DNA from: Gracilimonas mengyeensis | Lineage (GTDB): Bacteria > Bacteroidota > Rhodothermia > Balneolales > Balneolaceae | Assembly: GCF_900182705.1 (NCBI RefSeq) | Contig: NZ_FXTP01000003.1 | Span: 186,001 to 250,000 of the forward strand | Direction of reading: 5' to 3' | DNA length: 64,000 nucleotides | Shown here: positions 28,337-32,500 of the stretch, in pieces | Numbering within the stretch: position 1 is the first letter of the stretch | Layout: each line of letters begins with the position of its first letter | Made by a program: the position numbers and the translations under genes | The notes under the pieces: model-generated | What the model was told of the DNA's origin: nothing | The model's database searches: none | What the model saw: the letters and a program-made list of their open reading frames with translations, nothing else

Positions 28337-28533
28337 GCTTCGTAATTTTAACCGCAGAGGGCGCAAAGGTCACGCAAAGAACGCGGAATTATTATTTGAA
28401 CAAAAATGAGAAATTGGAGATTAAAAATTTCGTAAAAGTAAGGGGCAAACCCCAACAAGTTTGTGCGGGATAAGCGCAGAGCTTATGTAGTCAGGTGGTG
28501 ATTCACTTCCAATATTCGAATTAAAAAAGTAAA

Positions 28534-28876: not shown

Positions 28877-29479
28877 TCAAAAAGAATTCCGGCTGGCAAA
28901 GGCCCGGCTGAGTGTAGCCTCATCAATAAATTCCAACTCGGTACCCATCGGGATTCCATAGGCGATGCGCGTTACATCCACTTCGTAATTCTTCAGCAAC
29001 TTGTTGATGTAATAAGACGTCGCTTCCCCTTCGGCGTCGGGATTTAGAGCCAGAATCACCTCTTTGATTTCATCATCCTCCCCGACCCGTTTCAGCAGTT
29101 CCTGAATACGCAACTTATCCGGACCGATGTTATCCATGGGAGAAATCACCCCGCCCAGCACATGGTAGCGCCCGCGAAACTCATTGGATTTCTCGATGAT
29201 ATACACATCATTAAATTCCTCCACCACACAAATGGCCGAAGGATCGCGCTTGGGGTTATCGCAAATTTTGCACGGATCGGAATCGCTCACATTGCCGCAT
29301 ACCGAGCAGCGGGTTACTTTTTCCTTGAGGTCCACGATAGCCTGGGCCAAGTTCAGCGCGTAGTCGTCATTCTGTTTCAGCAAGTGAATGGCAATGCGCT
29401 GGGCCGATTTCCGTCCCGTACCGGGAAGCTTGGCGAGCTGTTCAATCGCCCGCTCCAAATATTCTGAAGTTATCTGCAT
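28877..29479 (-). CDS. recR: Recombination mediator RecR
   Basis: 200 residues, the normal length. N-terminal helix-hairpin-helix region (LPGTGRKSAQRIA, 18-30), a four-cysteine zinc finger (C58, C61, C70, C73) and a Toprim domain (about 81-175; VVEEFNDVYIIE, then ILALNPDAEGEATSYYI). It acts with RecO and RecF to load RecA on gapped DNA. Third gene of the conserved dnaX-ybaB-recR order, 74 bases below ybaB; the gap holds a TTAGGCGCAAGG repeat. Confidence 0.97.
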   Translation of the reverse strand: MQITSEYLERAIEQLAKLPGTGRKSAQRIAIHLLKQNDDYALNLAQAIVDLKEKVTRCSVCGNVSDSDPCKICDNPKRDPSAICVVEEFNDVYIIEKSNEFRGRYHVLGGVISPMDNIGPDKLRIQELLKRVGEDDEIKEVILALNPDAEGEATSYYINKLLKNYEVDVTRIAYGIPMGTELEFIDEATLSRAFASRNSF

Positions 29480-29489
29480 GTAGTAAGTG

Positions 29490-29550
29490 GCAAGATGTTA
29501 GGCGCAAGGCTCAAGTACTTCTTGTACCTAACACCTTGAACCTTGTAACT
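29490..29550. repeat. TTAGGCGCAAGG / CCTAACACCTTG inverted-type repeat, copy 1
   Basis: GTTAGGCGCAAGGCTCAAG is followed by CTAACACCTTGAACCTTG. A longer relative lies at 47711-47805 with the same TTAGGTGTTAGG...CCTAACACCTT elements. Both occupy short gaps just upstream of start codons or downstream of stops. Confidence 0.55.
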
Positions 29551-29553
29551 AAT

Positions 29554-29901
29554 TTAGAGTCCGAGTTTTGACATGTCCATGCCGGGGATGCCGCCGCCGG
29601 GAATCATGCCTTTGTACATCTCCTGCATTTTTTCTTTGGAAGCTTCTTCGGCCTTCTCCAACGCCTTGTTCACGCCCGCCACAATCAGGTCTTCCAGCAT
29701 CTCCTTGTCTTCAGGGTCAACAACGTCTTTATCCATTTCAATGGAAATCACCTGGCGCTGTCCGTTGGCTTTCACCTTCACCATGCCGCCGCCGGCTTCA
29801 GCCTCCACGATTACATCTTTGAGGCCTTCCTGCGCCTCTTCCATTTTCGATTGCATTTCCTGAATCTTGCCGAACATATCGGCCATATTAAAATTGCTCA
29901 T
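29554..29901 (-). CDS. ybaB: YbaB/EbfC family nucleoid-associated protein
   Basis: 115 residues. N-terminal helix (FGKIQEMQSKMEEAQEGLKD), a three-stranded sheet (VEAEAGGGMVKVKANGQRQVISIEM) and a C-terminal helix, the full EbfC dimer fold; the tail is Gly/Met/Pro-rich (GMIPGGGIPGMDMSKLGL). It binds DNA as a dimer. It lies between dnaX and recR as in most bacteria; the 155-base gap from dnaX is filled with a CGCAAAG-type repeat (about 29968-30054). Confidence 0.95.
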   Translation of the reverse strand: MSNFNMADMFGKIQEMQSKMEEAQEGLKDVIVEAEAGGGMVKVKANGQRQVISIEMDKDVVDPEDKEMLEDLIVAGVNKALEKAEEASKEKMQEMYKGMIPGGGIPGMDMSKLGL

Positions 29902-29965: not shown

Positions 29966-30054
29966 CTAACCGCCAAGGGCGCTAAGGTTTCGCAAAGACC
30001 GCGGAATAATTACCTTGCGAACTCCGCGCCATCTCCGTGTTCTCTGCGGTTAAA
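29966..30054. repeat. CGC(C/A)AAGGGCGC(A/T)AAGG dispersed repeat with terminal inverted ends
   Basis: AACCGCCAAGGGCGCTAAGG at the left and CTCTGCGGTTAAAAATTA at the right give an AACCGC...GCGGTT pair. The left half is shared with 28350-28393, including the CGCAAAGA-CGCGGAATAATTA stretch. It separates dnaX from ybaB. Confidence 0.6.
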
Positions 30055-30056
30055 AA

Positions 30057-32030
30057 TTAGTATTCCAGCTCGGCGCCGAAAATATCCACGATATCTTTGA
30101 TAATCGGATCCTTCTGCTGGATTTGCTTAAAGCGCTCGTACACGCTCATCGGCTTATCTTTTTCACTTTGTTTCGCCACCGAGATATTAAAACGCAGCAA
30201 GGTGCCCACGCATTCCTTCAATTTCTTCTGCAGGTCCGTTTTCTGTTCCTCCAGAATCTTATGCGAAAATTGGCTTTCACATTCCAGGTATAAATCCTTG
30301 CCCTTCAGCTTCAGCACTTTCACACGCTCCACCTGCATTTGCAGCAGCTTGGGGAATTCATCTTCCAGCGAGTTCACATAATTAACCCACTGCTCCTGCA
30401 CATATTCTGCCGTAATTTTCTCAGGCGCCGGTTTTTCTTCTTTTTGCGGGAATGATGCCGCAGCTGCCGCTTCCCGTTTCGGCCTTGAGGGCTTTACCGC
30501 AACACCTGCTTTTTTGGAAAGATTGGTTACAATAGCGGGAGCACCTATATCAAATTCGTCATCCTCGTCTTCTTCCGGCTCTGGCTCCATTGCCGGCTCT
30601 TCGTAATCAGGTTCTTCCACTTCAAACTCTTCTTCGTACTGCTCATCAGAAGACTCTTCGACACTATTGGTTTCTGATGGCTCCTCTTCAGCCGAATTAT
30701 CTGCTTTAGCCTCATGCTGTAATTCGGGTTCAGATTCCGGTGCCGGTTCTTGATCTACCGAAGCCTGTTGCCCGTTTCTTTCCGGGGTTGCCTGAACCTG
30801 TTTAGGCTCTTCTGCTTCAGAAGCATCCTGGCCGTTTGCATTCTGTTCAGCTTTCGCCTCAGCCGTTGTTTTTTCTTGGCTTGAGCCGTTTTCAGAGGGG
30901 CTTACGAAGTTACCGGAGTTTTTTTTTAACTCCTCAAGACCAGCCAACAGTTCACTTAATTTTTCCGAGCGCTCCATGTGGATGAGCTTCAGCAGGGTAA
31001 TCTCAAACTGTATGCGGGGCTGACTCGCGTCCTTCAGTTTAATCTGCGCCTCGCTGATGATGTGCAACATCCGCATCAAATCATCCCGCGAAAAATGCTT
31101 GGCCGTCTGCTGATAACGTTTCTTCGTCTCTTCGGATTCTTCCACCAAATACAACTGCTCCGTTTCATGAGCAATGTACAGGTTGCGCAGGTGCTCGGTC
31201 AGTCCGATTAAATATTCCTGAATGTCATAACCTTCCTGCAACAGCGTATCAATAAGCGAAAGACCGGCATCGGCATCGTGGTTTTTCACACATTCCATAA
31301 ACTGGAACAGTCGCTCGGAGCCTACTACGTTCAGTGCTTGCAGCAGCTCGTCATGGGTGATGGTATCCCCGCAAAAAGCAATCGCCTGATCCATCAGCCC
31401 AAGCGCATCACGCAACGCGCCGTCAGCTTTCTTGGCAATTACGTGCAGCGATTCATCATCAATGGAAATATCCTCATCCAAAGAAATCTTGCGAAGGCGC
31501 TGCACAATTTCATTCACCGAGATCCGCTTAAAATCAAAACGTTGTACGCGGGATAAAATCGTGGGGAGTACTTTGTGCGGTTCCGTCGTCGCGAAAATAA
31601 AGATGGCGTGCTCGGGGGGCTCTTCCAGCGTTTTCAGCAGTGCGTTAAAAGCTGCCTTGGAGAGCATGTGCACCTCATCCACGATAAATACTTTGTACTT
31701 CCCGTTCTGAGGCGGAATGCGAACGCTTTCCCGCAGGTGATGCACGTCATCCACTTTGTTATTGGAAGCGGCATCCATCTCCACGATGTTCAGCGTCTGG
31801 TTCAGCGACTCGCCGTCCACACTGGTGTCAATCTCGTTGATGGTGCGGGCAAGCACGCGGGCCATTGTTGTTTTACCCACGCCGCGCGGACCACAAAACA
31901 TATAGGCATGCGAAAGCCTGTTTTGCTTAATGGCATTTTTGATGGTATTGCTCACATGCTCCTGCGAGACAATATCGTCAAAAGAAGTAGGCCGGTATTT
32001 TCTTGTAAGTGCGCGGTAGGTTTCTGACAT
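30057..32030 (-). CDS. dnaX: DNA polymerase III subunits gamma and tau (DnaX)
   Basis: 657 residues. AAA+ ATPase: Walker A GPRGVGKT (47-54), Walker B VFIVDEVH (114-121), sensor 1 around FIFATTEPHK. Clamp-loader domain III ends near 365, then a Glu/Pro/Ala-rich linker (about 372-555) and the tau C-terminal domain (about 565-657). Two oddities: the four-cysteine zinc module normally found between residues 65 and 90 is absent (INEIDTSVDGESLNQTLN instead), and an A9 tract at codons 368-371 contains the slippery heptamer A AAA AAC, followed by a stop two codons on in the -1 frame, predicting a 373-residue gamma form. First gene of dnaX-ybaB-recR. Confidence 0.97.
   Translation of the reverse strand: MSETYRALTRKYRPTSFDDIVSQEHVSNTIKNAIKQNRLSHAYMFCGPRGVGKTTMARVLARTINEIDTSVDGESLNQTLNIVEMDAASNNKVDDVHHLRESVRIPPQNGKYKVFIVDEVHMLSKAAFNALLKTLEEPPEHAIFIFATTEPHKVLPTILSRVQRFDFKRISVNEIVQRLRKISLDEDISIDDESLHVIAKKADGALRDALGLMDQAIAFCGDTITHDELLQALNVVGSERLFQFMECVKNHDADAGLSLIDTLLQEGYDIQEYLIGLTEHLRNLYIAHETEQLYLVEESEETKKRYQQTAKHFSRDDLMRMLHIISEAQIKLKDASQPRIQFEITLLKLIHMERSEKLSELLAGLEELKKNSGNFVSPSENGSSQEKTTAEAKAEQNANGQDASEAEEPKQVQATPERNGQQASVDQEPAPESEPELQHEAKADNSAEEEPSETNSVEESSDEQYEEEFEVEEPDYEEPAMEPEPEEDEDDEFDIGAPAIVTNLSKKAGVAVKPSRPKREAAAAASFPQKEEKPAPEKITAEYVQEQWVNYVNSLEDEFPKLLQMQVERVKVLKLKGKDLYLECESQFSHKILEEQKTDLQKKLKECVGTLLRFNISVAKQSEKDKPMSVYERFKQIQQKDPIIKDIVDIFGAELEY
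30919..30927 (-). promoter_or_regulatory. dnaX: Putative programmed frameshift / slippage site in dnaX
   Basis: Nine consecutive A on the coding strand, read TTA AAA AAA AAC in frame 0. A -1 shift, or insertion of one A in the transcript, leads to CTC CGG TAA, a stop after two codons. Position (codon 368-371) is at the domain III/linker boundary, where gamma ends in other bacteria. No stimulatory stem-loop was recognised downstream. Confidence 0.65.
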
Positions 32031-32110: not shown

Positions 32111-32151
32111 TTGAATATCGAATATTGAATACTGAACATTCAATTTCGAAC
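32111..32151. repeat. GAACATTGAA-type repeat, copy near dnaX
   Basis: GAATATCGAATATTGAA and ACTGAACATTCAATTTCGAA. Relatives in this window are at 25945-25983, 32297-32321, 36802-36842, 41969-42028, 45021-45060 and 46661-46699, each 25-60 bases and between genes. The unit is nearly self-complementary (TTCAATATTC). Confidence 0.7.
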
Positions 32152-32500
32152 TGATGCCATTTCAGCCGAGTTTCCGAAAAAACGTAACGATGGATTTTAA
32201 GCTACAGCTCCATCATTCGGCTCAGCTGGTACAGGCAACAATCTATCAAATAGAACGAGCCGGGTGATGGAAGCGGGCCAATAAGAAAAATCTCTCGAAT
32301 ACCGAACATTCAATCTCAAAGTTTTCCGGAACTGGGTTTCTTGATCTTGTTCGATATTTTAAAAAATATATTAATTACACCCCGAATAAGTCTCTCCGTT
32401 GCCTGTTCGGTATTCGAGTGCGCATCATGATTCCCCAACTCTGTGCAGACTCCCTGTTGCATAAGCTATGGAAGAATCATTGGAAATTAAAGAAAAACGC

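Follow-up and report, generated by a model that had tools for sequence, protein, structure and literature searches.

Transcriptional slippage in dnaX is well known from Thermus, and to our knowledge its spread has hardly been described. In E. coli, dnaX undergoes -1 frameshifting at A AAA AAG, with a Shine-Dalgarno (SD) sequence on the 5' side and a stem-loop on the 3' side. The slippage of Thermus thermophilus dnaX (Larsen 2000, as described in PMC1088944 and PMC5009743) concerns an unrelated phylum and is biochemically proven, whereas the case presented here is predicted from sequence. Reversed (two-ORF) dnaX genes were first described by the GeneTack survey, which included Chlorobi and species with A10 runs; the same paper gives a frameshifting level of 40% in E. 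coli for an A9 run belonging to an unrelated gene cassette (PMC3711429).

The dnaX gene studied here lies in a stretch of 64,000 nucleotides from Gracilimonas mengyeensis (hereafter the window). As far as the accounts cited above describe the Thermus gene, both have a sense-strand A9 run, a zero frame that corresponds to tau and near stops in both other frames, so that the window gene appears to match the Thermus anatomy in every feature that can be tested on sequence. The location of the run is different: in those accounts the Thermus run lies about seven-eighths of the way through the gene, whereas the window run, at codon 368 of 657, lies right where domain III ends. As in E. coli dnaX, gamma would come from within tau, and a near -1 stop follows an in-phase A AAA AAN heptamer; unlike in E. 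coli dnaX, no stem-loop was found at the window site or in its relatives, and the SD-like purines 5' of the run show no clear conservation. The reversed genes of the GeneTack survey, with poly-A at the boundary and gamma and tau in adjoining frames, have counterparts among the relatives (L124/L125 and many other Bacteroidota), but the zero frame of the window gene is tau and a slip would be needed for gamma. The type of slippage is already known from Thermus, and the Balneolaceae would constitute a new, well-supported clade of such dnaX genes. The production of gamma from the window gene is in all likelihood programmed, and we consider it probable that the gene is a Thermus-type transcriptional slippage cassette in which RNA polymerase is the main slipper. 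The existence of both tau and gamma, and the ratio between them, are what we infer from these features.

The A9 run and the predicted products

The features of the gene, all on the minus strand of the window, are the following:

30057..32030, minus strand: dnaX coding sequence (ORF), whose zero frame is tau, 657 aa
30930..30935, minus strand: GAGGAG, Shine-Dalgarno-like, 2 nt 5' of the A run, not clearly conserved
30919..30927, minus strand: A9 slippery run, codons 368-371 (TTA AAA AAA AAC), from the sequence and its conservation in the family
30910..30912, minus strand: TAA that ends the -1 reading (gain of one A; CTC CGG TAA), for a computed 373-aa gamma ending in ...ELKKKLR
30902..30904, minus strand: TAA that ends the +1 reading (loss of one A) five codons on, for a computed 375-aa gamma ending in ...ELKKTPVTS
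30910..32030, minus strand: putative gamma reading, clamp-loader domains I-III only, deduced from the stops, the run and the end of domain III at residue 359

The product matches the NCBIfam model TIGR02397 (dnaX_nterm, E = 8.8e-119), and Pfam DNA_pol3_gamma3 covers residues 233-359. The coding strand around the run reads GAG GAG TTA AAA AAA AAC TCC GGT AAC TTC GTA AGC, and the acidic linker (34% Asp+Glu) is entered at codon 368, where the run starts. A synonymous version in which the run is broken is TTGAAGAAGAAC.

In the mechanism that we favor, RNA polymerase would slip on the A9 run and produce mRNAs with more or fewer As. Messages with nine As (or six, or twelve) would be translated into tau, 657 aa plus or minus one lysine, and those with ten or seven, or with eight or eleven, would be cut short by a stop at two or five codons beyond the run, giving a gamma of 372-376 aa, a clamp-loader ATPase that consists of domains I-III and lacks the tail to which the polymerase and the helicase bind. 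The computed products are 657 aa for A9, 373 aa for A10 and 375 aa for A8, and A6 and A12 messages respectively give tau minus and plus one lysine.

The sequence-only reading had placed an A9 at 30919-30927 in the phase TTA AAA AAA AAC TCC GGT AAC, at the edge between domain III and the acidic linker, and had derived from the -1 reading CTC CGG TAA a product of 373 residues beside a tau of 657. Position and phase are correct, the sequence and the ORF agree with both lengths, and the Pfam end of domain III at 359, with the run from codon 368, bears out the location. The 41 kDa proposed for the short form has to be corrected to a computed mass of 42.7 kDa. The A AAA AAC heptamer is indeed in phase, but this phase is no evidence for frameshifting, since any A9 run contains an in-phase A AAA AAN whatever its own phase. 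The closure of the +1 frame by the TAA at 30902-30904 was absent from that account.

No second A9 occurs in the window on either strand, compared with 3.7 predicted by dinucleotide shuffles. A9 is scarce genome-wide, with 41 distinct runs of at least nine As in 4.67 Mb, 14 of which, dnaX among them, are read in sense within ORFs of 150 aa or more (mechanical ORF calls).

Conservation of the run and closure of both wrong frames

We gathered 172 distinct dnaX genes from relatives; in a FastTree phylogeny of the DnaX N-terminal domains, the Balneolaceae clade comprises 82 rows. An A9 (63 rows) or A10 (11 rows) stands at codons 368-371 in 74 of these 82, and A9 is found in all ten genomes of the window's genus. 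An assembly error is an unlikely source of the run, which these ten separate assemblies all show. The remaining rows are one gene truncated by its contig (L052) and a subclade of seven rows (g4) in which codons 368-371 differ; five of these seven genes have A8 or A9 runs at other places. Most genes of sister families f3 and f4 have no run at the codon-368 site, and in family f5 (genus g25) the A9 is shifted one codon later. The absence of the run at this site from g4, f3 and f4 implies that a second product is not a universal requirement.

The simplest explanation for the run would be an incidental one: KK[NK] at the domain edge would be a protein constraint, AAA would be the preferred codon, and tau alone would be made. 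The KK motif is indeed conserved in the clade, and AAA is the commoner Lys codon (median 66%). Nevertheless, in the 74 run-bearing genes codon 368 is TTA, GTA, CTA, ATA or GCA, five codons for four amino acids whose third base is invariably A, and both Lys codons of the run are AAA in 74/74, compared with 40-87% AAA in other well-filled Lys columns. Given the amino acids and the codon usage of each gene, 6.1 of the 74 genes should have the run, and a chance origin is rejected on this ground. The summed log10 probability of the run is -47 for 39 representatives of less than 78% identity, a figure that ignores shared ancestry; reduced representative sets agree with the full set, whose p-values overstate independence because its rows are related. 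In the 88.5 kb made up by codons 1-361 of the same genes, there is no run of nine or more As. Across these relatives, as the sequence-only reading would have it, the run and the stops in the alternative frames are kept while the flanking codons and the linker drift, and the sequences show nucleotide-level selection across the Balneolaceae, on the run as well as on the stops in the two wrong frames. The incidental explanation is further weakened by the twin stops that travel with the run and by the reversed genes, which depend on slippage for tau (see below), and we regard it as very improbable.

Both wrong frames are closed shortly after the run. Among the 72 genes of standard layout, 85% have a -1 stop no more than two codons on and 93% a +1 stop no more than nine codons on; both fall within nine codons in 92%, versus 24% at N-terminal and 19% at linker control positions. 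None of 4000 draws from these controls reaches the observed value, neither in the full set nor with 38 representatives of less than 78% identity (-1 stop 82%, +1 stop 89%, both 89%), although the local amino-acid make-up could help to place some of the stops. In the 27 relatives without a run at the site, both stops lie within nine codons in 7%. Depending on the lineage, the -1 stop stands at codon +1 or +2 and takes the form TAA, TAG or TGA; as its codons vary, it is the stop itself that is kept. The closed +1 frame favors slippage of the Thermus type, since slippage of RNA yields messages in all three frames, and the stops in both wrong frames lend support to the Thermus-type mechanism that had been proposed from the sequence.

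The main alternative is -1 ribosomal frameshifting of the E. coli type at A AAA AAA or A AAA AAC, which would give gamma from uniform transcripts. In-phase heptamers do exist and the nearest stop is the -1 stop, yet a stop in the +1 frame is unnecessary for a -1 shift and it is present too. Similarly, the Balneolaceae runs are nine or ten long in 74/74 genes and never 6-8, though A6-A8 would suffice for a heptamer. No downstream structure was detected either: four 3' windows folded in 74 genes gave mean z values from 0.0 to -0.4, nothing above shuffles, and the window's own site has z = 0.1, so that the lack of a stem-loop stimulator in the sequence-only reading holds for the whole set. No Rfam match was found around the window gene, and scanning the coding strand for terminators gave nothing terminator-like at the A run. 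More in favor of the ribosome is a purine-rich, SD-like tetramer 5' of the run in 32/74 genes (43%, against a background of 15%). Its spacing of 2-5 nt is short, as known -1 SD stimulators stand farther from the slip site (~10 nt in E. coli-type dnaX), and it is not clearly conserved; the excess results in part from the frequency of Glu-Glu upstream of the run, where Glu codons are mildly enriched in GAG (58% vs 38% elsewhere). These purines are weak evidence for a possible ribosomal contribution. Moreover, as a frameshift site in E. coli, A_AAA_AAC is weak next to A_AAA_AAG (PMC5009743). Altogether, ribosomal frameshifting seems an unlikely main source of gamma.

Phase variation at the DNA level has also been considered, in which replication slippage would maintain a mixture of A8, A9 and A10 cells in the population. 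The occurrence of A9 and A10 and of standard and reversed layouts among relatives could be read in this sense. Yet A9 is fixed in all ten genomes of the genus, and off cells would lose tau in a gene that is essential in known bacteria. Furthermore, the tau frame stays open in the A10 genes of standard layout, which means that changes in run length have been compensated. Among the explanations examined, this is the one to which we give the least credence. If transcriptional slippage is the correct reading, the dnaX cassette would be, judging by sequence, the rule in a whole family.

Reversed layouts in Bacteroidota

In two Balneolaceae genes of genus g21 (L124 and L125), the site reads GCA AAA AAA AAA GAT TAA; the run is an A10, the zero frame ends after 372 aa and the tau C-domain is carried by the -1 frame (E = 5e-24). 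A further 25 Bacteroidota genes with a short zero frame have A9-A11 at the boundary and a tau-like C-domain, mostly in the -1 frame and with some weak matches (E down to 0.002, in L208); these genes come from a phylum sample that was picked partly for short zero frames and gives no frequency estimate, and single-assembly homopolymer errors are possible among them. In one of them, L221 (family f24), the dnaX run is an A10 and the tau-like domain lies in the +1 frame. The mixed direction of the shift (-1 and +1) suits RNA slippage, the +1 case being one assembly (L221). The reversed genes also argue against an incidental run, because slippage would be needed for them to make any tau. Standard and reversed layouts coexist in one family and, on single assemblies, in one genus of another family. 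The clade may offer a natural experiment on how frequent slippage lets a gene swap its default product.

Two minor observations concern individual genes. L237, a genus mate of L221, has an A11 and an unbroken tau frame, and the pair may represent a one-base swap of the default product. L219 is a divergent dnaX of 461 aa with an A10 at the boundary, and a tau-like domain is found in neither of its other frames.

A second candidate run and the surroundings of dnaX

Outside the window, the same genome has an A10 in an exonuclease-DnaE fusion gene (G000:C1:43524-43533; loci L240 and L278), where it stands at codon 235, in the linker between the Pfam domains RNase_T (3-182) and PHP (257-429). Such linker runs of A9 or A10 are present in 33 of 72 distinct Balneolaceae fusions, when synonymous resampling predicts 7.9, and none occurs in the exonuclease or PHP parts of the 72. 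All 33 are among the 35 rows whose exonuclease domain is closest to that of the query, with 75% identity or more; 10/10 of the window's genus are among them, and 37 other fusions do not have a run. The position of the run shifts, with about 45, 34 or 60-80 residues separating it from the exonuclease. In genus g17 the alternative-frame stops are near, at 1 and mostly 3-4 codons, but in the window's genus they are 6-12 codons away. A sober explanation for this run would be that the linker is rich in Lys and the genomes are richer in AT. Alternatively, slippage might serve two replisome genes in this clade, dnaX and the exonuclease-DnaE fusion, the latter releasing a free proofreading exonuclease alongside the exonuclease-polymerase fusion; we put this forward tentatively, at somewhat less than even chances. 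If it were true, transcript slippage would set the stoichiometry of the clamp loader and of the polymerase core, and slippage on the fusion run would bring the polymerase itself under the same principle.

Concerning the surroundings of dnaX, ORFs resembling YbaB and RecR, named from their translations alone, follow on the same strand (window 28877-29901), dnaX-ybaB-recR being the usual gene order. An intergenic CCGCCAAGGGCGCTAAGG-like repeat is present at window positions 29970-29987 and 28352-28369; it was found at 15 places in the genome with at most three mismatches, and a reversed control at 0. Upstream of dnaX, GAATATTGAATACTGAACATTCAATTTCGAA-like direct and inverted repeats lie at window positions 32113-32150, 32294-32320 and 32399-32418.
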